This document shows positions 9,812 to 26,255 of a DNA stretch of 44,438 nucleotides, piece by piece; the first letter of the stretch is position 1; the number at the start of each line of letters is the position of its first letter. Location of the stretch: the NCBI GenBank assembly GCA_023488435.1, contig JAMDCK010000034.1:1-44438 (forward strand), in the 5' to 3' direction. The translations under genes were made by a program, and so were the position numbers. The notes under the pieces were generated by a model. That model searched no databases and was not told the origin of the DNA. It worked only from the letters and a program-made list of their open reading frames with translations. The stretch is from Actinomycetota bacterium (GTDB lineage Bacteria > Actinomycetota > Coriobacteriia > Anaerosomatales > UBA912).

Positions 9812-10852
9812 ATGCACATGGCGGACGCTCTACTCTCACCACCGGTGGCCGGGGTGATGCTCGCGGCGACTGCGGGCACGGCGGCCTGGTGCATAAAACG
9901 CGTGCGGGAGGACATGGACGAGCGGATCGTACCGCTCATGGGCGTCGCGGGTGCGCTGGTCTTCTCGGCGCAGATGCTGAACTTCACGATCCCGGGAACC
10001 GGGTCGAGCGGGCACCTGGGCGGCGGTTTGCTGCTTGCAGCCCTGCTCGGACCGCACGCGGCGTTCCTCGTCATGGTCTCGATACTCGTGATCCAGGGGC
10101 TCTTCTTCGCCGATGGCGGGCTGCTCGCCTTAGGCGCGAACATCTTCAACCTCGGGTTCTTCCCCGCTTTCATCGGTTACGCACTCATCTATCGCCGCAT
10201 TGTGGGGGATGACCCGACGGTCCGAAGGCTCTTCATCGGCGGCTTGCTGGGCGCGGTCGTCGGATTGCAGCTAGGCGCGTTCGGCGTGGTGGCGCAGACG
10301 GCGCTTTCCGGCGTCACAGAGCTGCCCTTTACCGCATTCCTCGCGATGATGCTGCCGATCCACCTGCCCATCGGGATCATCGAAGGGCTTGTGACCGCTG
10401 GGATACTGGCGTTCATCCTCAAGGCGCAACCCGAGCTGATCGCTTCGGGCGCCAGACGCGCCGGGATCGAACCGCCGAGGACGAGGCGCGTTGCCGTCGG
10501 ACTCCTGACCGCGGCGGTTCTCGGGGCGTCGATGGTGGCGTGGTTCGCCTCGGCAAGTCCGGACGGGCTCGACTGGTCGATGGAGCGCGTAGCCGGAACC
10601 GCCGAGATACGCGGCGCATCGACCCCACTACACGAGGCGGTCGGCGAGGTGCAGGAGCGGCTGGCGTTCCTTCCCGGCTACGGCTTCCGTCCCTCGCCTG
10701 ACGCGCCTGCGGAGGCGGTCGGCGCCGCGCAGTGGCCCGCCGTCAGCGAGGAGACCAGTGTCGCCGGTGCAGCGGGTGTCGCGATGACGCTTGGGGTCCT
10801 CCTCGCGATGGGGCTGCTGTTCAAGTGGCGCGCGAGCAGACGGGGGCGGTAG
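9812..10852 (+). CDS. cbiM: ECF nickel/cobalt transporter substrate-binding subunit, CbiM-CbiN/NikN fusion
   Basis: 346 residues from the ATG at 9812 (AAGGAGG 9799-9805). The mature start MHMADALLSP is the signature N-terminal metal-binding loop of CbiM/NikM, in which His2 coordinates the metal. Six or so membrane helices follow. A C-terminal extension carries PDGLDW at about 250 and a final membrane helix near 320-338, matching a fused CbiN/NikN subunit. It is divergent from nikR-cbiQ-cbiO, completing the transporter. The last 49 codons are present again downstream because of the 753-bp tandem duplication, but this copy is intact. Confidence 0.93.
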   Translation: MHMADALLSPPVAGVMLAATAGTAAWCIKRVREDMDERIVPLMGVAGALVFSAQMLNFTIPGTGSSGHLGGGLLLAALLGPHAAFLVMVSILVIQGLFFADGGLLALGANIFNLGFFPAFIGYALIYRRIVGDDPTVRRLFIGGLLGAVVGLQLGAFGVVAQTALSGVTELPFTAFLAMMLPIHLPIGIIEGLVTAGILAFILKAQPELIASGARRAGIEPPRTRRVAVGLLTAAVLGASMVAWFASASPDGLDWSMERVAGTAEIRGASTPLHEAVGEVQERLAFLPGYGFRPSPDAPAEAVGAAQWPAVSEETSVAGAAGVAMTLGVLLAMGLLFKWRASRRGR

Positions 10853-11458
10853 CCGCGCGTGACCCGCGGGCCGAGCTGCGCCATAATGGGGACGCGGCAG
10901 GCGGTTAGCCGCCAGCGGACCGACGCGAGACCCGGAAGGTGACACACGCATGATCCCTCGTTATTCACGCCCGCAGATGGCCGGGATATGGGCGCCGGAG
11001 AACAAGTTCAAGATATGGCAGGAGATCGAGCTCCTCGCCTGCGAGGCGCAAGCCGAACTCGGGCAGATCGGCATCACCGCCGAGGAGGCCGCCCACATCC
11101 GCGCCACTTCGGCATTCGACATCGCTCGCATCGACGAGATCGAGCGCGAGACCAACCACGACGTCATCGCCTTCCTCACCAACCTCGCCGAGAACATCGA
11201 CGCGGGCATCCCCGAAGCGAGCCCGAAGCCCAGCCGGTGGGTGCATTACGGCATGACCTCCTCGGATCTGGGGGATACCGCGCTGTGCTACCAGATGACG
11301 CAGGCGGTCGACATCCTCATCGACGACGTTCGGCGTATCGGCGCGGTCTGCAAGCGCCGCGCTTTCGAGACCCGAGAGATGCTCTGCGCCGGCCGCACGC
11401 ATGGCATACACGCCGAGCCCATGACCATGGGGATGAAGTTCGGCCGCTGGGCGTGGGC
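10706..11458. repeat. 753-bp tandem duplication, first copy
   Basis: Covers the last 49 codons of cbiM, the cbiM-purB gap and the first 509 bases of purB. All sampled positions and all six translated frames match 11459-12211 exactly. The breakpoint (base 11458 to 11459) shows no shared bases between the two ends. Confidence 0.95.
10859..10887 (+). promoter_or_regulatory. Possible purB promoter
   Basis: GTGACC (10859-10864), 17-base spacer, CATAAT (10882-10887). The duplication carries the same element at 11612-11640 in front of the full-length purB. The -35 match is modest. Confidence 0.35.
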
Positions 11459-11540
11459 CCTGCGGAGGCGGTCGGCGCCGCGCAGTGGCCCGCCGTCAGC
11501 GAGGAGACCAGTGTCGCCGGTGCAGCGGGTGTCGCGATGA
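10950..11540 (+). pseudogene. Truncated duplicate of purB
   Basis: The first 169 codons are identical to the full purB that starts at 11703. At 11458/11459 the sequence jumps to the duplicated cbiM tail in a different frame, adding 26 unrelated residues before a stop at 11540. The fragment retains the N-terminal lyase region and the TMGMKFGRWAW segment but lacks the signature loop SSAMPHKRNP and the catalytic serine, so it cannot be an active lyase. It keeps its own start and ribosome-binding site and might still be translated. Confidence 0.88.
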
Positions 11541-11605
11541 CGCTTGGGGTCCTCCTCGCGATGGGGCTGCTGTTCAAGTGGCGCGCGAGCAGACGGGGGC
11601 GGTAG
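11459..11605 (+). pseudogene. Duplicated 3' end of cbiM
   Basis: The last 49 codons of cbiM, beginning exactly at a codon boundary (codon 299), now without a start. They lie in the +2 frame relative to the truncated purB copy. Encodes only the terminal membrane helix of the CbiN-like part. Confidence 0.85.
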
Positions 11606-12211
11606 CCGCGCGTGACCCGCGGGCCGAGCTGCGCCATAATGGGGACGCGGCAGGCGGTTAGCCGCCAGCGGACCGACGCGAGACCCGGAAGGTGACACAC
11701 GCATGATCCCTCGTTATTCACGCCCGCAGATGGCCGGGATATGGGCGCCGGAGAACAAGTTCAAGATATGGCAGGAGATCGAGCTCCTCGCCTGCGAGGC
11801 GCAAGCCGAACTCGGGCAGATCGGCATCACCGCCGAGGAGGCCGCCCACATCCGCGCCACTTCGGCATTCGACATCGCTCGCATCGACGAGATCGAGCGC
11901 GAGACCAACCACGACGTCATCGCCTTCCTCACCAACCTCGCCGAGAACATCGACGCGGGCATCCCCGAAGCGAGCCCGAAGCCCAGCCGGTGGGTGCATT
12001 ACGGCATGACCTCCTCGGATCTGGGGGATACCGCGCTGTGCTACCAGATGACGCAGGCGGTCGACATCCTCATCGACGACGTTCGGCGTATCGGCGCGGT
12101 CTGCAAGCGCCGCGCTTTCGAGACCCGAGAGATGCTCTGCGCCGGCCGCACGCATGGCATACACGCCGAGCCCATGACCATGGGGATGAAGTTCGGCCGC
12201 TGGGCGTGGGC
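11459..12211. repeat. 753-bp tandem duplication, second copy
   Basis: Exact repeat of 10706-11458, directly abutting it. It continues into the intact remainder of purB at 12212. Confidence 0.95.
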
Positions 12212-13982: not shown

Positions 13983-14726
13983 ATGCCCGCGACAGACATC
14001 ACGGAACTCGGCAGCCAGGTACGCTCACTGCCTCCTGCCGAAGTACTCCAGTGGGCGCAGGACCGGTATGGCGACAGGGTCGCTATAGCGTCCTCCCTGG
14101 GCCCTGAAGACCAGGTCTTGCTCCATATGGCGGCTTCCATCGAGCCTGGACCCAGGGTGTTCACGCTCGACACGGGACGCCTCTTCCCTGAGACCTACGA
14201 TGTCATCCGCGAGTCCGTCGAGCGTTACGGTATGCCTATCGAGGTCATGTTCCCAGACACTTCCGATGTCGAGGAGATGGTCCGAGCGCACGGTGTCGAT
14301 CTGTTCCGCGACAGCGTTGCCGCTCGCAAACTCTGCTGCGATGTCCGCAAGGTACGGCCACTCAAGCGCGCCCTCGCCGACATGGATGCATGGATCACCG
14401 GGCTTAGAGCGGGTCAGTCGCCAACCAGAGAGGCCCTCGAAGTCCTCTCTTGGGATGAAACGAACGGCCTGCTGCGCATCGCTCCGCTTGCCTCGTGGAC
14501 CGAGGAAGACGTGTGGACCTACATCCGCGCGCACGATGTTCCTGTCAGTGCGCTCCATGCCCGCGGTTTCCGAAGCATCGGCTGCGCGCCCTGTACGCGA
14601 GCGACGTTCCCCGGCGAAGACGTGCGTGACGGCCGGTGGTGGTGGGAGTCGCCCGAGCACAAAGAGTGCGGTCTGCATGCGTGCGGAGCAAAGGAGGCCC
14701 ATGATGCGAGCGAGGGGGCATCGTGA
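13983..14726 (+). CDS. cysH: Assimilatory APS reductase (4Fe-4S, thioredoxin-dependent)
   Basis: 247 residues. Reduces adenylylsulfate directly to sulfite and AMP. The PP-loop-type [14 protein letters not shown] (about 37-50) binds the nucleotide. Paired cysteines C118-C119 and C201/C204 are the 4Fe-4S ligands that distinguish APS reductases from cluster-free PAPS reductases. The catalytic Cys is C229 in the C-terminal KECGLHA segment. It is first of an operon, with cysD overlapping its stop by 4 bases (GTGA). GGAG precedes the ATG by 7 bases. Use of APS fits the broken APS kinase domain of CysN. Confidence 0.95.
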
Positions 14727-15607
14727 ACGACCACCTCGATCTTCTCGAATCCAAGAGCATCCACCTGTTGCGCGAGGCCTACGTCGAGCTCGGCAAACTC
14801 TGCTTCCTCTGGTCGATCGGCAAGGACAGCACCGTTCTGCTACACCTAGCCCGCAAGGCTTTCTTCGGGCACGTTCCCTTCCCGCTCGTCCATATCGACA
14901 CGCATTACGAGATCCCGGAGCTGATCGAGTACCGGAATCGACTCGTGTTGGAGTTGGGTCTCACGCTGGTGGTGGGACAGAACCGCGAGGCGCTCGCCGC
15001 CAAGCAGACGTTCCCGGACGGCACCATCGACCGCATCGCCTGCTGCCGCAAGCTCAAGACCGAGGCCCTGCACCGCACGTTGTCCGGTGAGTGGGACCGT
15101 GAGCGGCTCGACCTCGTCACCGGCGAGTTCGTGGTCGATTCAGACCGTGAGCCCTACACTGGCGTCATAGTCGGTGCGCGGGCGGACGAGGAGGGCAGCA
15201 GATCGAAGGAGCGCTATTTCTCGCCTCGTGACGCCGAGAACGACTGGAACGTCGACGACCAGCCGCCCGAGCTCTGGCGTTACTACAAGACGGAGTTCGC
15301 ACCGGGCACGCATGTGCGCGTCCACCCGCTGCTCGACTGGACCGAGCTCAACATCTGGGAGTACATCGAGCGCGAGGATATCCTGGTCACCAGCCTCTAC
15401 TTCGACCAGGGCACGGGGGTCCGTCACCGCTCGCTCGGGTGCTGGCCATGCACGAGCCCCGTCGAGTCCACGGCGGCGACGGTAAGCGACATCGTCACGG
15501 AACTGCGTACCGGCAAGTTCAGCAACATAGCCGAGAGAAGCGGGCGTGCCCAGGACGCCGACGACGAAGGCGGACTCGAGACGTTGCGCCGAGAGGGGTA
15601 CATGTGA
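14723..15607 (+). CDS. cysD: Sulfate adenylyltransferase subunit 2
   Basis: 294 residues, usual length about 300. Forms APS from ATP and sulfate with the GTPase CysN. The PP-loop [13 protein letters not shown] at about 30-42 binds ATP. Further conserved blocks are [36 protein letters not shown] and [14 protein letters not shown]. Start is GTG overlapping the cysH stop; the stop overlaps the cysN start by one base (TGATG), giving a tightly coupled cysHDN unit. Confidence 0.97.
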
Positions 15608-17424
15608 TGCTCGACCGCCGCGTGACGCCTACGCCGCCTTCTCGCGATCGCCTCGACATGGTGGTCGTCGGTCATGTCGACCACGGTAAGTCCACCCTTA
15701 TCGGCCGCCTTATGGCAGACACGGGATCGCTGCCAGAGGGCAAGCTCGAGCAGGTGCGCGCGATGTGCGAGCGTAACGCGCGGCCGTTCGAGTACGCATT
15801 CCTGCTCGACGCGCTCAAGGACGAGCGCGCCCAGGGCATCACGATAGACACAGCTCGCTGCTTCTTCCGCACGCCTGCTCGTGACTTCGTCATCCATGAT
15901 GCGCCCGGTCATATCGAGTTTGTCAAGAACATGGTGACCGGGGCCGCGCGTGCTCAAGCCGCGCTGCTCCTCATCGACGCCCAAGAGGGCATCCAGGAGA
16001 ACTCGCGCCGCCACGGCTACATCCTCTCGATGCTCGGTATCGGCCAGATCGCAGTCGTCGTGAACAAGATGGATCTGGTCGCCTATGACGAAACGGTGTT
16101 CGAGCGTATCGTCGCGGAGTACCGCGAGTTTCTCGGCAGGTTCAACGTGACCCCGATCGGCTTCATCCCTGTGGCAGCCCGCGCTGGCGTGAACATCGCC
16201 GAGAAGGGGACTGAGATGCCATGGTACGAGGGTCCGACGGTGCTCGAGCAGATCGATGCGTTCCAGACGGCAGACGAGCGCAGCGAATTGCCGTTCCGCA
16301 TGCCGGTTCAGGATGTCTACAAGTTCACCGCGGCCGGAGATGACCGGCGGATCGTGGCGGGCACCGTTGAGACCGGCAGGCTCGCACTGGGAGAGGAGGT
16401 CGTCTTCTGGCCGTCGGCCAAGCGCTCGCGGGTCGCCACCATCGAGGCACTGACGGCACCTCCAGCCAGGCTGACCCCGGATCTAGCCTCCGGAATCACG
16501 CTGGAGACACAAGTCTACGTTCGCCGCGGGGAGCTGATGACTCGTGCCGACGATCCGGCACCGTCTGTTGCGCGGCGTGTCCGTGCGAACGTACTCTGGC
16601 TCGGGCACGCGCCCCTCGTTCCCGGCAAGAACTATTTGTTCAAGCTCGGAGCGGCAAAGGTTCCTGCCGAGCTCGTCGAATTGCGTTGTTCCATCGACGC
16701 ATCAGACCTGGTCGAGAGTCAGGCGACGACGACACTGGAGCGTCATGCGATAGGAGAGGTCGTCCTCGAGTTCGCGCGACCCGTTGCGTTCGATCCAGCT
16801 GGCCTGCTCGAGCCCACGTCGCGTTTCGTGATCGTCGACAACTACGACATCGCGGGCTTCGGCACGGTGCTCGAAGGATTGACTGGAGACGAGTCGATGC
16901 TCGAGCGCCACGCGAGAGAGCGTGAGGCAGCGTGGGAACGCGGAGAGGTCGCCCGCGAGGAGCGCGAGGAGCGTTACGGCCACGAGGGCAAGGCAGTCGT
17001 CATCGTCGGCTCGCCCGAGGCACCCGCCAGACCAGTCGCCCGTGCACTCGAGCGCAGGCTGTTCGAGGCCGGCGCCCATGTGTACATGCTGCTGCTCTCC
17101 GAGAAGCTCGCGGGGTTCGACCCACTCCATGGCGATGTCATCGAGCGAGAGGAACACCTGCGGCGCCTCGGCGAACTGTCGCGCTTGATGACGGATGCGG
17201 GGACGATCTTCGTCACTGCGCTCGATGGCATGGATGCAGAGGATCTCGAGCGGCTCAGAGTGCTGAACGCACCTAGCTCGCTGCTCGTCGTTTCGACCCT
17301 CCCGAACGCCGACTCGCTCGATGCGGACATCACGCTGGCTCCAGGCGCCGATCTCGGCGCCGCGGTCACAGCGATCCTGCGTGGCCTCGCCGCTGTCGGC
17401 GCGGCGCCCGAATATTGGATCTAA
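15607..17424 (+). CDS. cysN: Sulfate adenylyltransferase subunit 1 fused to a degenerate APS kinase domain
   Basis: 605 residues from the ATG at 15607; a frame extending 56 codons upstream overlaps cysD and is not used. Residues 1-430 are the CysN GTPase: P-loop GHVDHGKST at 22-30, DAPGH at 98-102, NKMD at 153-156, and beta-barrel domains after 220. Residues about 460-600 align in order with CysC, including a match in ARALERRLFEAGAHVYML. However, the kinase P-loop GxSGxGKS is replaced by GSPEAPARP at 468-476, removing the essential Gly-Lys-Ser/Thr. The tail is therefore probably not an APS kinase. A structural or regulatory role is inference. Confidence 0.94.
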   Translation: MLDRRVTPTPPSRDRLDMVVVGHVDHGKSTLIGRLMADTGSLPEGKLEQVRAMCERNARPFEYAFLLDALKDERAQGITIDTARCFFRTPARDFVIHDAPGHIEFVKNMVTGAARAQAALLLIDAQEGIQENSRRHGYILSMLGIGQIAVVVNKMDLVAYDETVFERIVAEYREFLGRFNVTPIGFIPVAARAGVNIAEKGTEMPWYEGPTVLEQIDAFQTADERSELPFRMPVQDVYKFTAAGDDRRIVAGTVETGRLALGEEVVFWPSAKRSRVATIEALTAPPARLTPDLASGITLETQVYVRRGELMTRADDPAPSVARRVRANVLWLGHAPLVPGKNYLFKLGAAKVPAELVELRCSIDASDLVESQATTTLERHAIGEVVLEFARPVAFDPAGLLEPTSRFVIVDNYDIAGFGTVLEGLTGDESMLERHAREREAAWERGEVAREEREERYGHEGKAVVIVGSPEAPARPVARALERRLFEAGAHVYMLLLSEKLAGFDPLHGDVIEREEHLRRLGELSRLMTDAGTIFVTALDGMDAEDLERLRVLNAPSSLLVVSTLPNADSLDADITLAPGADLGAAVTAILRGLAAVGAAPEYWI

Positions 17425-17474: not shown

Positions 17475-17553
17475 AATCGCCTGTCGTCGTCGTATGATGT
17501 GGTCACCCGGACACGGGAACGTGGATGTGGAAGACATCAGACAGGAGGGTCAG

Positions 17554-18612
17554 ATGAAGAACGGCGATCCAACCGGCACGAGAAGGGTTGTGGCCGCCAC
17601 TCTCGTGGCGGCTCTCGCGATAGTGGCGGGGCTCATGGCGGGTTGCTCGAGGCAGACTGAGGAGCAGGTGACGACGCGAGAGCTGACGATCGTGTCGTTC
17701 GCGGTCACAGAGGAGGCGTACGCCGAGGTCATCCCGCTGTTCCAGAGCTACTGGAAGGACAAGACCGGAGAGGACGTGCAATTCGTAGAGTCCTTCGGCG
17801 GTTCGGCTAGCCAGGCCCGCGCGGTCATCGACGGGCTTGAGGCCGATGTGGTGCACCTGGCGATGGAGCCGGATGTTCGCAGGATCGAAGAAGCCGGGCT
17901 CATTGAGGCCGGTTGGCAGGACAGGGCGCCCCGCGACGCGATCCCGTCAACCAGTCTCATAGTGCTCGGTGTGCGTCCCGGCAATCCAGAGGGTCTTGAT
18001 GACTGGAACGCATTAGCGGGCGAAGGTGTCGCAATCGTGACGCCGGATCCGAAGACGAGCGGCGGCGCGCGCTGGAACGTGCTCGGCGCATGGGGCTCGA
18101 TCACACAGACTGGCGGCACGGAAGAGGCCGCCATGGATCTTCTCGCCGGGATCTTCGGCAACACCAAGGTGCTCGCTCCTAACGCCCGCGATGCCACGAA
18201 CACCTTCCTGCAGCAGAGGATCGGCGACGCCGTGATCATGTGGGAGAGCGAAGCCCTCTTGGCCAAAGCCGAGGGCGAGGAGCTCGACATCGTGTACCCG
18301 GCGAACACTGTCCTTGCCGAGACAGCCGTAGCCGTCGTTGACGCCAATGCCAAGGCGAAGGGCAACGAGGAGGTCGCCAGGGCTTTCGTCGACTTCCTCT
18401 TCACACCCGAGGCGCAGAGGGCGTTCGCCGAGGCAGGATTGCGCCCGGTCGACGAAGGAGTGCTCGCCGAATATGCGGATGTGTACTTCGCACCGAGTGG
18501 GAAGCAGTACACCATCGACGACTTCGGCGGCTGGGCCGAGGCGGACACGAAGTTCTTCGTCGACGGTGCGCTTTACGACCAGATCCAGCAGAGGATCCGG
18601 GGGGATAGGTAA
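17554..18612 (+). CDS. sbp: Sulfate/thiosulfate-binding lipoprotein
   Basis: 352 residues from the ATG at 17554, which follows AGGAGGG. N-terminal signal with lipobox LMAGC, lipid-anchored Cys at 31. The mature part follows the Sbp/CysP pattern: ELTIVSFAVTEEAYAEVIPLFQ, the SFGGSASQARAVIDGLEADVV block that holds sulfate at a helix N-terminus, then PKTSGGARWNVLGAWG and FLQQRIGDAVIMWESEA. It delivers sulfate to CysT/CysW/CysA encoded directly after it. The 129-base gap upstream carries the second putative operator, so the transporter genes may have a promoter separate from cysHDN. Confidence 0.95.
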   Translation: MKNGDPTGTRRVVAATLVAALAIVAGLMAGCSRQTEEQVTTRELTIVSFAVTEEAYAEVIPLFQSYWKDKTGEDVQFVESFGGSASQARAVIDGLEADVVHLAMEPDVRRIEEAGLIEAGWQDRAPRDAIPSTSLIVLGVRPGNPEGLDDWNALAGEGVAIVTPDPKTSGGARWNVLGAWGSITQTGGTEEAAMDLLAGIFGNTKVLAPNARDATNTFLQQRIGDAVIMWESEALLAKAEGEELDIVYPANTVLAETAVAVVDANAKAKGNEEVARAFVDFLFTPEAQRAFAEAGLRPVDEGVLAEYADVYFAPSGKQYTIDDFGGWAEADTKFFVDGALYDQIQQRIRGDR

Positions 18613-18614
18613 CG

Positions 18615-19544
18615 TTGAAGCTCGGCCTCACACCCGAGGGCGCCAAGGTGGCCGACAGCGCGGACATAGCGTCCGTCATGCCGGTCCGTCGTAGGCGCAT
18701 GTTGCCCGACGGGTCCCTGGCGTGGGGTGTGACTGCGGCGATGATCGGGGTGCTTGTGGTCTTGCCGTTCGCCGCACTTATGGCGACGAGCAGCGGGCTC
18801 GGGCTCTCCGGCATCATCGCAGAAGTAAGCGAGCCTGTGGCGCTAGCCGCGCTCGGCCTATCGTTCGGCGGCTCGCTGCTGACCGCGGGCATCAACACGG
18901 TGATGGGGCTGCTGCTTGCTTGGGTGCTCGTGCGCTACAGCTTCTGGGGACGCGGCATCGCCGACGCCGCGGTCGACCTTCCGTTCGCGCTCCCAACCGC
19001 TGTGGCCGGTGTGACACTGGCGCATCAGTTCGGGCCGACCGGGTGGCTCGGCACGCTCGGGACGACGCTCGAGGGAAAGCTTGGGCTTGCGGCCGGATCG
19101 CTCGCTTGGCTGAACCTGCAGGCGTCTTTCACGGTCTGGGGTGTGCTCATAGCGATGACGTTCGTGACCATTCCCCTGGTCGTGCGCAGCGTTCAACCGG
19201 TGCTCCTCGCCCTCGACACCGAGGTCGAGGAGGCGTCGCTTTCGCTCGGAGCCTCCCGGCTGCAGACTTTTGCGCACGTCATCCTTCCCGCACTACGCCC
19301 CGCGTTGCTTGCGGGGTTCGCACTCAGCTTTGCCCGCTCCCTTGGGGAGTTCGGGTCCGTGATCGTCATCAGCGGCAACATCCCTTTCGAGACGCTCACC
19401 GGACCCGTGCTCATCTTCCAGAAGCTTGAACAGTACGACGAGTCTGGTGCCGCCGCGGTCGCACTGGTGATGCTCGTCGGCTCGCTCGTGACGCTTGCAG
19501 TCGTCGCGTTCCTGCAGTCGAGGAAGGCTGGCTCTCATGGCTGA
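18615..19544 (+). CDS. cysT: Sulfate ABC transporter permease CysT
   Basis: 309-residue inner-membrane permease with about six helices, the first at about 36-58. The cytoplasmic EAA loop that contacts the ATPase is EEASLSLGASRLQTFAHVIL near 213-232. Start is the TTG at 18615, two bases after the sbp stop. Its 3' end overlaps cysW by 8 bases. The N-terminal 30 residues before the first helix are longer than usual. Confidence 0.94.
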   Translation: MKLGLTPEGAKVADSADIASVMPVRRRRMLPDGSLAWGVTAAMIGVLVVLPFAALMATSSGLGLSGIIAEVSEPVALAALGLSFGGSLLTAGINTVMGLLLAWVLVRYSFWGRGIADAAVDLPFALPTAVAGVTLAHQFGPTGWLGTLGTTLEGKLGLAAGSLAWLNLQASFTVWGVLIAMTFVTIPLVVRSVQPVLLALDTEVEEASLSLGASRLQTFAHVILPALRPALLAGFALSFARSLGEFGSVIVISGNIPFETLTGPVLIFQKLEQYDESGAAAVALVMLVGSLVTLAVVAFLQSRKAGSHG

Positions 19545-20400
19545 CGCGCAAACCGTTCGCGGATCGCCTTCGCTGGTCCGCCGAGTGCTCATCGGGCTTG
19601 CGATCACGTGGCTCCTCGCCGCGCTGGCCCTGCCGATCGCGATCTTGTTCACCACGGCCTTCTCGGAAGGATGGCAGGCATTCGTCGAGACGTTCGGCCG
19701 CCCGGACCTGCTGCACGCGAAGTGGCTCACGCTTCTCGCTGTGCTGGGCGCTCTCGTGGTGAATCTGCTCTTCGGACTGACCGCGGGCTGGACGGTCGCG
19801 CGCACCAAGCTGCCGGGTCGTCGCCTCGTGTCGATGCTGCTCGATCTGTCGATCGTAGTTCCGCCTGTCATCGCCGGTCTCATGATCCTGTTACTGTACG
19901 GGCGGCGCGGGTGGTTCGGCACGCTGCTCGAATCCGCCGACATCAAGGTGGTTTTCGCGTTGCCTGCGATAGTACTCGCCACCATCTTCGTGACGTTGCC
20001 GTTCGTCGCCAAGGAAGTGATCTCCGTGCTCGAAGAGACAGGCGAGAACGAGGAGAACGCTGCGGCCACCCTCGGTGCGTCGCGCATGCAGACCTTCTTC
20101 CTTGTCGTGCTGCCTAACCTCAAATGGGCGCTCTTCTACGGCATCGTGCTCACGGTCGCGCGGGCACTCGGTGAGTTCGGAGGGGTCTTGGTGGTCTCGG
20201 GCAACCTGATCGGCAAGACGCAGACGCTCCCGCTCTTCATAGAGCATGCCTATACGAACTACGAGACGGTCGCGGCTTTCGCCGCTGCAGTGCCGCTCGC
20301 GGTGGCCGCCGCCCTCACGCTGTTCGTGAAAGGCGTTGTGGCTGCGGTGGAGCGCCGGTTGGCGGAGGACTCGGCGATCCCTTCAGAGGGAAGGAGGTGA
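19537..20400 (+). CDS. cysW: Sulfate ABC transporter permease CysW
   Basis: 287 residues from the ATG at 19537; an in-frame extension to 19495 is inside cysT and is rejected. About six membrane helices, with EAA motif ENAAATLGASRMQTFFLVVL. Includes the family segment ARALGEFGGVLVVSGN, seen also in CysT as ARSLGEFGSVIVISGN. The stop is preceded by AAGGAGG, which serves as the ribosome-binding site of cysA three bases later. Confidence 0.95.
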   Translation: MADAQTVRGSPSLVRRVLIGLAITWLLAALALPIAILFTTAFSEGWQAFVETFGRPDLLHAKWLTLLAVLGALVVNLLFGLTAGWTVARTKLPGRRLVSMLLDLSIVVPPVIAGLMILLLYGRRGWFGTLLESADIKVVFALPAIVLATIFVTLPFVAKEVISVLEETGENEENAAATLGASRMQTFFLVVLPNLKWALFYGIVLTVARALGEFGGVLVVSGNLIGKTQTLPLFIEHAYTNYETVAAFAAAVPLAVAAALTLFVKGVVAAVERRLAEDSAIPSEGRR

Positions 20401-20403
20401 CCG

Positions 20404-21459
20404 ATGAGCATCGAGGCGATAGGCGTCAGCAAGCGCTTCGGGGCGTTCCAAGCATTGAGGGATGTGTCAGTCGAGGTCCCGCACGGCTCGCTTCTCGCAC
20501 TGTTAGGGCCTTCGGGCAGCGGCAAGACGACGCTGTTGCGCACCATCGCCGGCCTTGAGGCGCCGGACACGGGAACGGTGCTCATCGATGGCGCCGACAT
20601 GACCTCCATCGACGTGCGCGACCGGGGAATCGGCTTCGTGTTCCAGCATTACGCCCTCTTCAAGCACATGACGGTCGCCGACAACATCGGCTTCGCGCTT
20701 CGCATCAAGCGGTGTCCGAAGGCCGAGGTCCGTGAGCGCGTAGATGAGCTTATCGCGCTTTTCCGTCTCGAGGGGCTCGCCGGGCGCTTGCCCGAGCAGC
20801 TTTCAGGAGGTCAGCGCCAGCGGGTTGCCCTGGCCCGTGCGCTCGCTGCCCAACCCGAGGTGCTTTTGCTCGACGAGCCGTTCGGCGCACTCGATGCAAA
20901 GGTGCGCCTCGAGCTTCGCCGCTGGTTGCGTCGCCTTCACGACCAGATCGGCGTCACCACCGTCTTCGTCACTCACGACCAGGAGGAGGCTCTCGAGGTG
21001 GCCGACAGGATCGTCGTCATGAACGCGGGGCGTATCGAGCAGATCGGTTCGCCCGAGGAGGTCTTCAAGAATCCAGCGAATGAGTTCGTGATGGAGTTTC
21101 TCGGCAATGTGAACGTCTTCCATGGTCGGGTGCATGGCGGTGTTGCGAATGCGGGTCCGCTTGTGGTGGAGGCGCCGGGTGTGGCCCCGGGCACCTCGGC
21201 CAACGCTCGCGTATACTTCAGGCCGTACGACGTCGACCTTCACATAGAGCGGCCGGAGCGCCCCCATTTCCCGGCAGTGGTCGTACACGTGAACCCGGCA
21301 GGACCTCGCGTGAAGATAGAACTCGAGGATACCGAGAAGCGGCAGGTCTTCGCTGAGATCGACTGGGAGACATATGACGCCCTCGGTGTCTCGCCAGGTG
21401 ATCGATTGTATGCAAGTCCCCGCGAGACGCGGGTCTTTTTCGAGGACTACTCCATCTGA
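20404..21459 (+). CDS. cysA: Sulfate ABC transporter ATP-binding protein
   Basis: 351 residues. Walker [10 protein letters not shown] at 35-43, Q-loop Q81, signature LSGGQ at 133-137, Walker B LLLDEP at 154-159 and switch His in VTHDQEEA. The C-terminal 110 residues (about 240-351) form the TOBE-type regulatory domain typical of CysA. It completes the sulfate importer and is 25 bases from the sulfite reductase gene, so uptake and reduction genes appear to be one transcript. Confidence 0.96.
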
Positions 21460-21484: not shown

Positions 21485-22345
21485 ATGGAGATCGATGAAG
21501 CCACACTCAAGGGCGGTGGGTTCATCAAACTGAAGCAACCGGACCGCTTTGCGCTGCGGGTGAAGGTCCTTGCTGGCGACACGGATCCCGAGCAGCTGCG
21601 TGCGATAGCCGGGATCGCCGAGAAGTTCGGCGACGGCGAGGTGCACTTCACCGTGCGCCAGAGCGTCGAGATCCGCGGAGTGAGTGTCGAGGACTTCGAC
21701 GCGATCCATGCAGCCCTGCGTGAGGCCGGTCTCAGTACTGCCGCCTGTGGCCCCCGCGTGCGTGCGCCGGTTGTGTGCCCGGGCTCGGCGACGTGCAAGC
21801 GCGGGTTGAGCGAGACCGTCGGGTTGGCCAAACGGCTTGACGAGGCGCTCGCCGGATCCTCGATCCTACCACACAAGTTCAAGATCGGAGTGACCGGCTG
21901 CTCGGCGCAGTGCGCCAAGCCGCAAGAGAACGACCTTGGGTTCCGGGGCTCGGTCCAGCCGGTTTTCGACGAGCGCGACGGCGACTGCATCGCCTGCGGC
22001 GTCTGTGCGGCCGTGTGTTGGCCCGGCGCCATCACCCTTGACGCCGATGGCCGTCCGGTCATCGATCCGACGAGGTGCGACTTCGACGGGAAGTGCGTCT
22101 CCTCGTGCCCGACGCGAGCGATCCGCGCTCAACGCTTGGGCTGGCAGGTCTACATCGGAGGATGCTTCGGCTCCCGCCCGCGGCTAGGGGTGCTCGCCGA
22201 GAGCTTCATAGATGACGACCGTGCGGTCGACCTCGCATATGCCGCTCTCGATGTTTACCAGCGACTCGGGAACCGCGGCGAGCGCCTGCGCGATGTCATG
22301 GACCGCATCGGACACGACGAGTTCATACGAGAGGTGACAAGATGA
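21485..22345 (+). CDS. Sirohaem sulfite reductase with ferredoxin domain
   Basis: 286 residues from the ATG at 21485 (AAGGAGAG upstream). Reduces sulfite to sulfide with six electrons. Residues 1-160 are one nitrite/sulfite reductase repeat, with the coupled sirohaem-4Fe-4S ligands C98/C104 (CX5C) and C139/C143 (CX3C). Residues 165-215 hold ferredoxin clusters C168/171/174/178 and C198/204/208. This compact single-chain form resembles the low-molecular-weight and archaeal Fsr-C/group III enzymes rather than CysI or DsrAB. Position after sulfate transport and before the sulfur-carrier genes argues for assimilation. It overlaps the next gene by 4 bases. Confidence 0.92.
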   Translation: MEIDEATLKGGGFIKLKQPDRFALRVKVLAGDTDPEQLRAIAGIAEKFGDGEVHFTVRQSVEIRGVSVEDFDAIHAALREAGLSTAACGPRVRAPVVCPGSATCKRGLSETVGLAKRLDEALAGSSILPHKFKIGVTGCSAQCAKPQENDLGFRGSVQPVFDERDGDCIACGVCAAVCWPGAITLDADGRPVIDPTRCDFDGKCVSSCPTRAIRAQRLGWQVYIGGCFGSRPRLGVLAESFIDDDRAVDLAYAALDVYQRLGNRGERLRDVMDRIGHDEFIREVTR

Positions 22346-22572
22346 GTGAGACCATCGACTTGCGGGGCGTGGCGTGCCCGCTCAACTACGTCAAAGCGAA
22401 GCTCGCGATCGAGCCGCTCGAGTCCGGCGCCGAGATCGGCCTGTTGCTCGACAGTGGCGAGCCGGTCGCGAACGTGCCGCGCTCCCTGGCTGACGACGGC
22501 AACGAAGTCGTCTCGCTCAAGCAGGCCGAGGAGGGCCACTTCGAGCTGCGGGTGCGCAAGGGGCAGCCGTGA
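22342..22572 (+). CDS. TusA-family sulfur carrier-like protein
   Basis: 76 residues with the SirA/TusA fold: DLRGVACPLNYVKAKLAIE at 6-24 holds the active cysteine C12. Classic TusA has Cys-Pro-x-Pro; here it is Cys-Pro-Leu-Asn, a variant common in proteins tied to sulfite reductase and cysteine synthesis loci. It probably accepts sulfide or persulfide from the preceding reductase and delivers it onward (inference). Starts by ATGA overlap with the reductase; its own stop overlaps the protease gene start (GTGA). Confidence 0.88.
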   Translation: MSETIDLRGVACPLNYVKAKLAIEPLESGAEIGLLLDSGEPVANVPRSLADDGNEVVSLKQAEEGHFELRVRKGQP

Positions 22573-23003
22573 TCAGCGCGGCGGACACAGGTGCGACTGG
22601 GACGGTGCGGTTCCGGGTGTCGGTACTTGAACAGCTCATGACCGAGGCCCGCGCCGGAGCGCCGTTCGAGATTTGCGGCATCCTGGCTGCGGACGTGGAT
22701 GGAATCGTCGTCGCGGCCTACCCCCTCACCAACGTAGCAGCGTCCGAGACCTACTACTCGATCGACCCGGGCGAGCAGCTCGCCGCTTATCAGCACTTCC
22801 GCGACGCAGGACTCGAGGCGATCGGCGCCTATCACTCGCATCCGGCCTCACCGGCCCGTCCCTCGGCAACCGACATCGCCGAGGCCTACGACCCGGACGG
22901 TCTCTACGTGATCGTCTCGCTTGAAGCAACACCGGCTGTCCGCGCATGGCGCATCGCCGAGGGCGTGGCGACCGAGTTCGATATCGAATCGACGAAAGGA
23001 TGA
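22569..23003 (+). CDS. JAMM/M67-family metalloprotease (Mec/QbsD/HcyD-like)
   Basis: 144 residues. The zinc protease motif is complete: Glu34, then H89-S90-H91-P92, S99 and D102 (H-S-H-P-x6-S-x2-D). Bacterial JAMM proteins next to ThiS-like carriers either trim residues after the Gly-Gly of the carrier (QbsD, HcyD) or release cysteine from a carrier adduct (Mec). The following gene encodes a carrier with two residues after Gly-Gly, which favours trimming here. Starts at a GTG overlapping the tusA-like stop. Confidence 0.9.
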   Translation: MISAADTGATGTVRFRVSVLEQLMTEARAGAPFEICGILAADVDGIVVAAYPLTNVAASETYYSIDPGEQLAAYQHFRDAGLEAIGAYHSHPASPARPSATDIAEAYDPDGLYVIVSLEATPAVRAWRIAEGVATEFDIESTKG

Positions 23004-23008
23004 TGGAC

Positions 23009-23221
23009 ATGGCGATCAAGGTATTCATCAACGGAAAACCGAGCGAGGCCGCTGCGCCGGTGGCGCTGCTAGATCTACTCGCCGAACTCAAGATCCGGCC
23101 CGAGGTCATCTCGGTCGCGGTCAACAAGTCGATGGTTGGCAGGGCTGATCTCGAGGGCCTGACGCTCGATGACGGCGACGAACTCGAGATCATGCTGCAT
23201 CTGGCTGGGGGTCGGCTCTGA
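23009..23221 (+). CDS. ThiS/MoaD/CysO-like sulfur carrier with Gly-Gly-Arg-Leu tail
   Basis: 70 residues from the ATG at 23009, 8 bases after GAAAGGA; two upstream ATGs are worse spaced. The fold is beta-grasp: IKVFINGKPSE at the start, LLDLLAELKI helix, then DDGDELEIMLHLAGGRL. The Gly-Gly is at 67-68, followed by Arg-Leu. Carriers such as ThiS, MoaD and CysO normally end at Gly-Gly, where the thiocarboxylate forms, so this one is a precursor needing removal of Arg-Leu. The adjacent JAMM gene is the obvious candidate enzyme. It would then be adenylated by the ThiF-like protein and donate sulfur to cysteine synthase. Confidence 0.88.
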   Translation: MAIKVFINGKPSEAAAPVALLDLLAELKIRPEVISVAVNKSMVGRADLEGLTLDDGDELEIMLHLAGGRL

Positions 23222-23247
23222 GCCCGCTGCCCGACATACTATCAACG

Positions 23248-24132
23248 GTGGGCCGCACGCCGCTCGTCCGCCTCAAACCGACTCGGTCCGGACAGGCGGC
23301 GGTATTCGCGAAGATCGAGTCTGCGAATCCCGGGGGCAGCGTGAAGGACCGTCTCGCCCTTGCGCTCATCGAGGATGCCGAGAAGCGCGGTGTGCTCGCG
23401 GCTGGAGGCGCAGTGGTCGAGGCGACATCGGGCAACACCGGCATCGGGCTGGCGATCGCATGCGCCGTGCGCGGCTACAGGCTCATACTCGTCTTACCAG
23501 AGAGCATGAGCGCGGAGCGTATCGCCTATATCCAGGGACTCGGTGCCGAGGTGATGCTATCCCCTGCGGACGGCGGGATGGCAGGCTCCATCCACATGGC
23601 CGAAGCCGTGGCGGAGAGCGTGGACGGCTTCATACCGCGGCAGTTCGATAATCCCGCGAACCCGGCGATCCACGAGGCCACCACCGGCCCTGAGATCCTC
23701 GCCGAGATACCGGCACCGGACGCGTTCGTCGCGGGCGTAGGTACCGGCGGGACGATCACCGGCGTCGCACGAGCGTTCCGAACCGCACAGGCCCGAGCAC
23801 TCATCGTCGCTGTCGAGCCGACGACCTCGCCCGTACTGTCCGGCGGCCACGCGGGACCTCACCGGATACAGGGCATCGGGGCAGGATTCGTGCCCGCTGT
23901 CTTGGATCGCGATCTGCTCGACGAGATCATCACTGTCGACGACCTCGAAGCATGGAACGAGGCCGGGCGCCTCGCGCGGACAGACGGTCTTTTCGTCGGC
24001 GTGAGCTCTGGAGCCGCCTCGCTCGCGGCCTTCTCGGTGGCGGACCGCCTCGGCGAAGGTTCCAACGTCGTGACCCTGTTTCCGGACACTGGCGAGCGCT
24101 ACGTGAGCCTCGCCTCCTACTTCGACCTTTAG
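23248..24132 (+). CDS. cysM: PLP-dependent cysteine synthase (CysK/CysM family)
   Basis: About 294 residues from GTG at 23248. The conserved N-terminal run VGRTPLVRL begins right at this codon, yet the family usually has a further ten residues, and the upstream in-frame codons do encode SPLPDILST. The only start-like codon there is a CTG at 23218 that overlaps the carrier stop as CTGA, mirroring the ATGA and GTGA overlaps of this operon. PLP lysine is in GGSVKDR; phosphate loop TSGNTG is present. Converts acetyl- or phosphoserine to cysteine; placement with the carrier genes suggests thiocarboxylate as sulfur donor. No serine acetyltransferase is nearby. Confidence 0.94.
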   Translation: MGRTPLVRLKPTRSGQAAVFAKIESANPGGSVKDRLALALIEDAEKRGVLAAGGAVVEATSGNTGIGLAIACAVRGYRLILVLPESMSAERIAYIQGLGAEVMLSPADGGMAGSIHMAEAVAESVDGFIPRQFDNPANPAIHEATTGPEILAEIPAPDAFVAGVGTGGTITGVARAFRTAQARALIVAVEPTTSPVLSGGHAGPHRIQGIGAGFVPAVLDRDLLDEIITVDDLEAWNEAGRLARTDGLFVGVSSGAASLAAFSVADRLGEGSNVVTLFPDTGERYVSLASYFDL

Positions 24133-24175: not shown

Positions 24176-24988
24176 GTGGCACTCACAGAAGCTGACATCA
24201 TCCGATACGGTCGGCAGATCATAGTACCCGAGGTCGGTGGGGCCGGACAGGAGAAGCTGCTCGCCTCGCACGCGGTCGTGATCGGCGCTGGCGGCCTCGG
24301 CTCGCCGTCGTTGCTCTACCTTGCGGCTGCCGGTGTCGGCCACATCACAGTCATCGACGGTGACGTGGTCGACGAGACGAACCTCCAGCGTCAGATCGCG
24401 CACACGACGGCTGACCTGGGCGTGAACAAGGCGGTCTCCGCAGCAGAGACGATGCTGGCGATCAACCCCGGCATCGATGTCACCGCCATTCCCGAGCGCG
24501 TCAACGCCGAGAACATCGGCTCGCTTATCGCCGACGCGGATGTCGTGCTTGACGGCAGCGACAACTTCGCGACGCGTTACCTCGTCAACGATGCGTGCGT
24601 GCTGGCGAGAAAGTCGCTCGTGGAGGCTGCGATCCTGCGGTTCCATGGACAGCTCCTGACCGTGTTGCCAGGCAGTGGCCCCTGCTATCGCTGTCTCTTC
24701 CCGGCTCAACCGGAACCCGGATCCGTGCCGAGCTGCTCGCAAGCGGGGATATTGGGTCCGGTGGCGGGCGTGATGGGATCGCTTCAGGCGGCCGAAGCGC
24801 TCAAGCTGCTGATCGGAGCTGACACCCTTGTAGGCCGGGCGCTCTTCGTCGATGTGCTATCGATGGACATGCGCACGTTCGAGATGCCGCGTGACCCGGG
24901 CTGTCCGGTCTGCGGCGACGACCCTGTCATCACGGAGGCGCTCTACGAGGAGCTAGGTTGCGGTCTGCCCGGAGCTGGGGCAAGCTAG
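24176..24988 (+). CDS. ThiF/MoeB-family carrier-activating enzyme
   Basis: 270 residues. An E1-like enzyme that adenylates the C-terminal glycine of ThiS-type carriers. N-terminal RYGRQIIVPEVGGAGQEKL, ATP-binding GAGGLGSP at 37-44, DGDVVDETNLQRQ at 61-73 with its arginine finger, and Asp-rich DGSDNF at 126-131. The zinc site is C170/C173 with C243/C246. C187 in the PSC motif is the equivalent of the catalytic thioester or persulfide Cys. There is no C-terminal rhodanese domain. Start GTG at 24176. It is four bases from the sirohaem synthase gene and almost certainly acts on the upstream carrier. Confidence 0.93.
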   Translation: MALTEADIIRYGRQIIVPEVGGAGQEKLLASHAVVIGAGGLGSPSLLYLAAAGVGHITVIDGDVVDETNLQRQIAHTTADLGVNKAVSAAETMLAINPGIDVTAIPERVNAENIGSLIADADVVLDGSDNFATRYLVNDACVLARKSLVEAAILRFHGQLLTVLPGSGPCYRCLFPAQPEPGSVPSCSQAGILGPVAGVMGSLQAAEALKLLIGADTLVGRALFVDVLSMDMRTFEMPRDPGCPVCGDDPVITEALYEELGCGLPGAGAS

Positions 24989-24992
24989 AGCC

Positions 24993-26255
24993 GTGGACGA
25001 ACCGAGATACAAACGAGCCGCTTCCCACTTGCCGCTGTTCGTCGAGTTAGGCGGAAGGCTCGCGGTGGTCGTTGGCGGGGGCTTAGTGGCCGAGCGGCGC
25101 GTCGTGCGGCTCCTCGCGGCCGGCGCTACCGTACGCGTGACCGCACCCGGGATCACGCCTCTGCTCGCGAGTCTCGCCTATCGGGACGAGATCGAACTTC
25201 GGCAGCGCGAGTTCGAGGATGCCGACGTCGAGGGCGGGTTCCTCGTAGTCACGGCTACCGATAACGCCGCAGTCAACGAACGCGTGCGAGAGGCCGCTCG
25301 TCAAGCCGGGGCGCTCGTTAACGCAGCGGACCACCACAACTCCGGCGACGTCGTCTTCGGTGCCGAGGCGAGGCTCGGTCCTGTGCGGCTCGCGGTCACC
25401 ACGCTCGGTGCCGCGCCAGCCGAATCCTCGCGCATCCGCGATGAACTCGCCGCGGCCCTCACCGGCGAGAGTGTCGAGCGCGTGAGTGCGGCAAGCTCTC
25501 GCCGCCGCAGACCCGGCTTTGGCGCTCCCGGCCCTCGTGTCGCTCTCGTCGGTGCCGGTCCTGGCGATCCCGGACTCGTCACTGCACGGGGACTTGAGCT
25601 GCTGCGCGCCGCCGATGTCGTGGTGCACGACCACCTTGTCGACCCCCGCCTGCTCGCCGAAGCCCCAGAGACAGCCGATCTAGTCTACGTCGGCAAGCGC
25701 GCGGGTTCGCATCACTTCTCGCAAGCAGGGATCGACGCACTGCTCGTTCGACTCGCGATCGAGGATCCCGCCCGCCGCATCGTGCGGCTCAAGGGCGGCG
25801 ACCCTTTCGTCTTCGGTCGAGGAAGCGAGGAGGTAGAAGCCCTCGGCGCGGCCGGAATCGACGTAGAGGTAGTGCCCGGCGTGACGGCGGGGACAGCGGT
25901 GCCCGCATGTGCGGGCATCCCTATCACAGCACGGGGTACGGCCCCTTCGGTCACTTTCGTCACGGGGCATCGTGCGGCCGCAGGTTCGCGCGAGGTTGAT
26001 TGGCGCGCACTCGGGGCTACCGGCGGAACGATCTGCGTCTTCATGGGGTTGGCGCGGCTGCATGACATCGCACAGGAGCTGATATCGGGCGGTATGGCAC
26101 CCACAACCCCCGCTGTCGCGATATCGCGGGGCTGCACACCGCAACAACGTCTGGTGGAGGCACCTGTCGGGAAACTGCCCGCGGCGGTCGAACAGGCGGG
26201 GCTCGTCAGCCCCGTACTGCTTGTGATCGGTGAGGCGGTCAACAGGCGCGCTTAG
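24993..26255 (+). CDS. cysG: Bifunctional sirohaem synthase (precorrin-2 dehydrogenase + uroporphyrinogen-III methyltransferase)
   Basis: 420 residues, GTG start. Residues about 13-160 are the Met8/SirC-type dehydrogenase, with NAD motif VVGGGLVAERRV and NAADHHNSGDVVFGA. From about 178 the CobA-type methyltransferase follows: VALVGAGPGDPGLVTARGLE, VHDHLVDPRLL, RLKGGDPFVFGRGSEE and PGVTAGTAVPACAGIP. It is shorter than E. coli CysG (457), mostly in the linker. Supplies sirohaem for the sulfite reductase of the same cluster and is its last gene; the next gene is convergent. Confidence 0.94.
   Translation: MDEPRYKRAASHLPLFVELGGRLAVVVGGGLVAERRVVRLLAAGATVRVTAPGITPLLASLAYRDEIELRQREFEDADVEGGFLVVTATDNAAVNERVREAARQAGALVNAADHHNSGDVVFGAEARLGPVRLAVTTLGAAPAESSRIRDELAAALTGESVERVSAASSRRRRPGFGAPGPRVALVGAGPGDPGLVTARGLELLRAADVVVHDHLVDPRLLAEAPETADLVYVGKRAGSHHFSQAGIDALLVRLAIEDPARRIVRLKGGDPFVFGRGSEEVEALGAAGIDVEVVPGVTAGTAVPACAGIPITARGTAPSVTFVTGHRAAAGSREVDWRALGATGGTICVFMGLARLHDIAQELISGGMAPTTPAVAISRGCTPQQRLVEAPVGKLPAAVEQAGLVSPVLLVIGEAVNRRA

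Follow-up and report, generated by a model that had tools for sequence, protein, structure and literature searches.

In work listed as reference 34 of PMC5764234, Krishnamoorthy and Begley reportedly described in 2011 a pathway of Wolinella succinogenes in which the JAMM protein HcyD trims HcyS-Ala, the E1 protein HcyF and sulfide from sulfite reductase turn the carrier into a thiocarboxylate, and the JAMM protein releases the amino acid. HcyS, with its one-residue cap, serves homocysteine synthesis together with MetY, and the CysO/Mec+/CysM system of Mycobacterium tuberculosis likewise joins a carrier, a JAMM protein and a synthase, in this case for cysteine and with a carrier that ends at Gly-Gly. 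Sulfur carriers with capped C-termini typically need a protease such as QbsD, and in both the QbsE/QbsD and the PtmS2/PtmS1 pairs a carrier capped after Gly-Gly (MV in PtmS2) is encoded beside a JAMM protein and must lose its cap before activation (PMC6006322). A JAMM protein may also cleave at the carrier glycine within a larger precursor, as in Deinococcus radiodurans, where DrJAMM is required for the activation of MoaD-MoaE and cleaves it so that a C-terminal Gly remains (PMC8832034), and MoaX of M. tuberculosis requires a cut after Gly-Gly by an unidentified protease (PMC4326299). Operons of this general kind were predicted in 2006 by Iyer, Burroughs and Aravind, whose type 4e is the relevant one and who suggested that the JAB protein could free fused carriers (PMC1779556).

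The 44,438-nucleotide stretch of DNA analysed here (hereafter the window) contains an operon with the ThiS-like carrier, JAB protein, E1 protein without rhodanese domain, SirA-like protein and sulfate assimilation genes of type 4e, but with CysK in place of O-acetylhomoserine sulfhydrylase, which that type lists and which the available part of the 2006 text does not state to be always present; nor does that part mention caps (PMC1779556). The setting within sulfate assimilation, claimed in the preliminary description of this DNA, is hence confirmed as an operon of a type already predicted. With GGRL at its end and a JAMM gene adjacent, the carrier is capped in the manner of QbsE and HcyS. It differs from HcyS in the two residues of its cap and in its partner, CysK, since the operon has no MetY (the PF01053 genes of the genome sit on other contigs), and from CysO of M. 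tuberculosis in its GGRL end, its CysK-type rather than CysM synthase, the neighbouring TusA gene and the E1 protein without rhodanese domain. The Qbs and Ptm pairs serve thiocarboxylic natural products or siderophores, whereas the window operon serves sulfate assimilation; the DrJAMM precursor belongs to molybdopterin synthase, and the cap there is a whole enzyme. The precedents of QbsE/QbsD, HcyS/HcyD, PtmS2 and DrJAMM make the trimming mechanism proposed here one that is known in kind.

The sulfate assimilation operon and its capped carrier

The source genome comprises 1.70 Mb in 62 contigs and is 96% complete, the window being its contig C34. The operon runs on the + strand in the order cysH, cysD, cysN, ABC transporter, sulfite reductase, TusA, JAMM, carrier, CysK, E1-like protein and CysG (Table 1), cysH and cysD being named from their own sequences and from homologues in the same operon type. 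The JAMM start overlaps the TusA stop (GTGA), and the JAMM stop overlaps the carrier start (ATGA) if the first ATG, at 23000, is used as an alternative to the start at 23009. No ATG, GTG or TTG precedes 23248 in cysK, whose likely CTG start overlaps the carrier stop as CTGA (window 23218-23250). A CTG near the carrier stop of a relative (L013, 4467-4500) likewise resembles a cysK start, ATG, GTG and TTG being absent there. The possibility that a frameshift joins carrier and cysK in the window was considered and rejected, because L013 and L014 also keep two separate genes.

Table 1. Genes and features of the operon in the window
Feature	Position	Strand	Basis
cysH, cysD, cysN with C-terminal APS-kinase-like region	13983..17424	+	cysN: TIGR02034, PF01583
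Sulfate-type ABC transporter: binding protein, two permeases, ATPase	17494..21459	+	named from the sequences of the ORF translations
Sulfite reductase, dissimilatory/Asr-C-like, ferredoxin insert	21485..22345	+	PF01077, PF03460, Fer4; TIGR02912 below cut-off
TusA/SirA-like sulfurtransferase, 76 aa, Cys in RGVACPLN	22342..22572	+	PF01206 E=1e-18
JAMM/Prok-JAB metalloprotease, 144 aa, GTG start	22569..23003	+	PF14464 E=3e-24
ThiS-like sulfur carrier precursor, 70 aa, C-terminus LAGGRL	23009..23221	+	PF02597 E=2e-9, TIGR01683 E=5e-12
Codons CGG CTC, predicted Arg-Leu cap after Gly67-Gly68	23213..23218	+	sequence
CysK-type O-acetylserine sulfhydrylase	23218..24132	+	TIGR01139 372 bits, above cut-off
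E1-like MoeB/ThiF adenylyltransferase without rhodanese domain	24176..24988	+	PF00899 E=5e-82; rhodanese match absent
CysG-type siroheme synthase (precorrin-2 dehydrogenase + SUMT)	24993..26255	+	PF00590, PF13241

Judged by its sequence, the synthase belongs to the free-sulfide CysK family and not to the CysO-dependent CysM type; the closest PDB sequence is CysK of M. tuberculosis. Two further strong PALP family matches are present in the source genome, and cysteine therefore need not pass through the carrier. Elsewhere in the window, positions 10706-11758 hold an exact tandem duplication with 753-base spacing. It copies the end of one gene together with the beginning of the next, purB (adenylosuccinate lyase), and is possibly an assembly artefact.

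Codons and family matches (PF02597, PF14464) confirm the initial claim of a carrier ending in Gly-Gly-Arg-Leu beside an intact JAMM protease. The last codons of the carrier gene, GCT GGG GGT CGG CTC TGA, read A-G-G-R-L-stop, and its assignment to the ThiS/MoaD carriers is backed by PF02597, TIGR01683 and a beta-grasp model that is closest to 3CWI/ThiS and also matches 1ZUD. The two other ThiS-family carriers of the source genome stop exactly at Gly-Gly (VRFVSGG and FPPVAGG), and so do, in their solved chains, E. coli ThiS, MoaD, Urm1, SAMP2 and M. tuberculosis CysO (3dwg). The closest solved carrier, 2K5P/3CWI of Geobacter metallireducens, was named ThiS by its depositors; with an end of GGGK plus tag, deduced from chain length and alignment, it resembles a JAMM-linked capped carrier rather than a thiamine ThiS.

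That the JAMM protein holds every zinc and catalytic residue is also borne out. Its motif E34...H89-S-H91-P-x6-S99-x2-D102 is complete and fits the JAMM/MPN+ pattern E-x(n)-H-S/T-H-x(7)-S-x(2)-D through E34, H89, S90, H91, S99 and D102, of which all are invariant in 50 aligned relatives except S90, which is nearly so. An AlphaFold model (pLDDT 91) finds its best PDB matches in 2KKS and in JAMM1 of P. furiosus, solved with a ubiquitin-like partner. The fold also matches PfJAMM1-SAMP2 and Rpn11, and the best partial NCBIfam match is a desampylase, below cut-off, as might be expected if the carrier were a protein modifier and the JAMM protein its deconjugase, in the manner of SAMP/HvJAMM1. We deem this highly improbable, given that the operon is wholly devoted to sulfate assimilation, that no E2-like gene was recognised among its genes and that the carrier has no recognised target, even though dual carrier/modifier roles may occur.

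Carrier tails and the distribution of JAMM proteases

A scan of the JAMM alignment against 84,980 species genomes returned at least 553 relatives, and in most of the best 80 loci, drawn from many phyla, a carrier and an E1 gene adjoin the JAMM gene, with TusA, sulfite reductase and either MetY or CysK nearby. All 76 distinct carriers that adjoin a JAMM gene of this clade, from many phyla, are capped. Seventy-three carry GGG followed by 1-13 residues, 31 of them by a single residue, often Arg, while the small clade of the window has AGG followed by RL, SE or SDA, its AGG departing from the MGGG of most relatives. The two-residue extension first described is thus real in the window, but it is just one of many tail lengths, the commonest being one residue after GGG. 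The tails of the 76 carriers are mutually unrelated in sequence, which fits a discarded piece, and by these comparisons the Arg-Leu cap is no accident.

The free variation of the tails in sequence and length could also be expected of by-products of gene overlap, in which the carrier stop lies over the next start and the tail persists since a JAMM protein that evolved for something else trims it; the tails of the window (CTGA) and of L014 do form part of overlaps with cysK. Such an origin is conceivable but unlikely, since the lack of any tail-less carrier among the 76 JAMM-linked carriers of this operon type goes beyond drift alone, many tails far exceed the needs of an overlap, and free-standing ThiS genes are tailed too. 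It bears, moreover, on where tails come from and not on whether the JAMM protein trims them.

The association between caps and JAMM proteins extends well beyond adjacent genes. Among 99 genomes of the Coriobacteriia, none of 50 readable carriers is capped where a strong Prok-JAB match is lacking, all of them ending exactly at GG or GGG, and the two JAMM-linked carriers of the class, that of the window (GGRL) and that of G096 (GGGC), are both capped. A strong Prok-JAB match is present in 29 of 78 genomes of the phylum Omnitrophota, in which 44 of 64 carriers of JAMM-positive genomes are capped or fused against 0 of 30 in genomes without a strong match (Fisher p=2e-11, kinship ignored). Counted by genome, the figures are 27/29 against 0/22 (p=2e-12, kinship ignored), and the difference persists when the count is confined to carriers that lie on a different contig or over 12 kb away from the JAMM gene (26/44 against 0/30; p=3e-8, kinship ignored). 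The capped carriers of JAMM-positive Omnitrophota include ThiS genes far from the JAMM gene. In a set of 30 JAMM-positive genomes from several phyla, each of the 32 carriers next to a JAMM gene has a cap; of the 39 non-adjacent carriers, 9 are tailed or fused, ThiS-ThiG and MoaD-MoaE included. Five tailed ThiS-like carriers of JAMM-positive genomes (L106, L108, L125, L133 and L139) have no JAMM gene within the surrounding 9-10 kb (L231, L233, L234, L235 and L237) and are candidates for trimming in trans. This distribution indicates that carrier tails depend on a JAMM protein anywhere in the genome, not merely on an adjacent one. The tree of GGG carriers offers no more than three independent pairs with good support, of which about two agree with the association and none opposes it, a number too small for significance.

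Weak Prok-JAB matches (20-38 bits, mostly in frames of 170-430 aa) were left out of the JAMM count, since frames of this size point to JAB proteins of another kind, such as RadC-like ones; a JAMM protein missed in a genome would weaken the association with caps, not create it. Several apparent cases were set aside. A fused carrier without JAMM in G040 (L228) reflects an assembly gap, the protein sequence reading X across the junction, and was dropped; L103 was rejected as a cap without JAMM, its wider context (L232) showing JAMM and E1 genes close by; L174 and L175 are weak, non-canonical matches; and L170, an alignment-edge effect, is not among the 9 of 39.

CysO-type carriers provide a more complex picture. 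The preliminary description had set the two residues after Gly-Gly apart from ThiS, MoaD and CysO, a contrast that, as regards CysO, stands for the M. tuberculosis protein but not for other CysO-type carriers, in which VAGG, VAGGSI and VAGGR ends are mixed; beside a JAMM gene, L238 is uncapped, whereas L239 and L241 are capped. Uncapped carriers in this position indicate that the presence of a JAMM protein alone is no proof of a trimming role, and those of M. tuberculosis and L238 point to adduct release as a real and separate JAMM function. Together with the cysteine synthase of the operon, they lend some weight to the idea that the JAMM protein of the window acts only on carrier-cysteine, like Mec+ on CysO-Cys, and that Arg-Leu is a tolerated neutral extension or the target of a general carboxypeptidase. 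Were this so, however, caps would occur in genomes without JAMM, and the observed frequency there is 0 of 80 carriers, Coriobacteriia and Omnitrophota combined. A general carboxypeptidase, for its part, would be expected in every genome, and a fusion of 411-755 residues would lie beyond its reach. In complexes of E1 proteins with ThiS or MoaD, furthermore, the terminal Gly carboxylate lies at the ATP, and hence a cap should block activation. We therefore regard exclusive action on the adduct as improbable.

Natural fusions of carriers to enzymes

In JAMM-positive Omnitrophota, carriers are fused in frame across their glycines to CysK (5 genomes), MetY (2 genomes) and DNA topoisomerase I (9 genomes). 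Three genomes have carrier-E1 fusions, with a rhodanese domain in the one scanned, and one genome has a carrier fused to a 91-residue stretch resembling a NIL domain. Five of these fusions (CysK, MetY, E1-rhodanese and two topoisomerase I) were scanned with Pfam, which confirmed the two domains in each. The CysK and MetY fusions join the carrier to a PLP sulfhydrylase. Those with MetY (L163, 2155-3579; L273, 3123-4583) adjoin E1 and JAMM genes and are 92% identical between their two genomes; relatives have two separate genes with tails. In the topoisomerase fusions a ThiS-like domain lies N-terminal to DNA topoisomerase I across GGG (L369, 1499-3721; also L280, L281, L346, L353, L363, L365, L371 and L373, all JAMM-positive), and in G354, G368 and G399 this fusion is the sole ThiS-family match of the genome.

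Across the roughly 150 other genomes compared, caps and carrier-enzyme fusions occur only where a JAMM protein is present. We consider it somewhat probable that the JAMM protein matures sulfur carriers throughout the genome and not its neighbour alone, so that in its presence any carrier, ThiS included, may gain a tail or a fusion across Gly-Gly (to topoisomerase I, CysK, MetY, E1, MoaE, ThiG or a NIL-domain-like protein), and in its absence carriers end exactly at Gly-Gly. Neither ThiS-topoisomerase fusions nor the coupling between JAMM and caps turned up in a literature search of partial coverage. This coupling and the fusions are what looks new here, and the coupling, together with the topoisomerase fusions, would be the part surprising to a specialist.

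A proposed route to cysteine and its implications

The best-supported reading of the locus, given that the cap tracks JAMM proteins across genomes and has precedents in the literature, remains that the neighbouring JAMM protein trims Arg-Leu, as first predicted. The carrier would be made as an inactive precursor, from which the JAMM protein, cutting after Gly68, would remove Arg-Leu and so leave the carboxylate of Gly-Gly exposed. Adenylation of the freed Gly would fall to the E1-like protein, and sulfide from the sulfite reductase of the operon, or a TusA persulfide, would yield the carrier thiocarboxylate, which the CysK-type enzyme would couple to O-acetylserine to form carrier-cysteine. 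A second cut by the JAMM protein would release cysteine and regenerate the carrier. We put the probability of this sequence of trimming, thiocarboxylate formation, coupling and cysteine release at about 85%. Within it, the removal of Arg-Leu is strongly supported by sequence comparison; for the two cleavages, the position of the cut, the thiocarboxylate and the cysteine product we infer from QbsE/QbsD, HcyS/HcyD and Mec+/CysO. Trimming and cleavage of a cysteine adduct had been posed as alternatives, a dichotomy that does not hold, as the same JAMM protein probably does both.

The window thus offers a clean example of predicted precursor processing in bacterial sulfate assimilation. More generally, the comparison yields a testable rule: residues after Gly-Gly predict that the genome encodes JAMM, and where JAMM is absent a carrier ends at Gly-Gly. 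Such a rule would aid the assignment of function to hundreds of JAMM genes and would single out annotated ThiS carriers whose role may lie in amino-acid synthesis. The natural carrier-enzyme fusions are ready-made putative JAMM substrates, and the system as a whole lends itself to asking, in bacteria, how ubiquitin-fusion precursors could arise. If the JAMM protein does act as a genome-wide maturation protease, the fused carriers would parallel, in bacteria, the synthesis of ubiquitin as fusions to ribosomal proteins.
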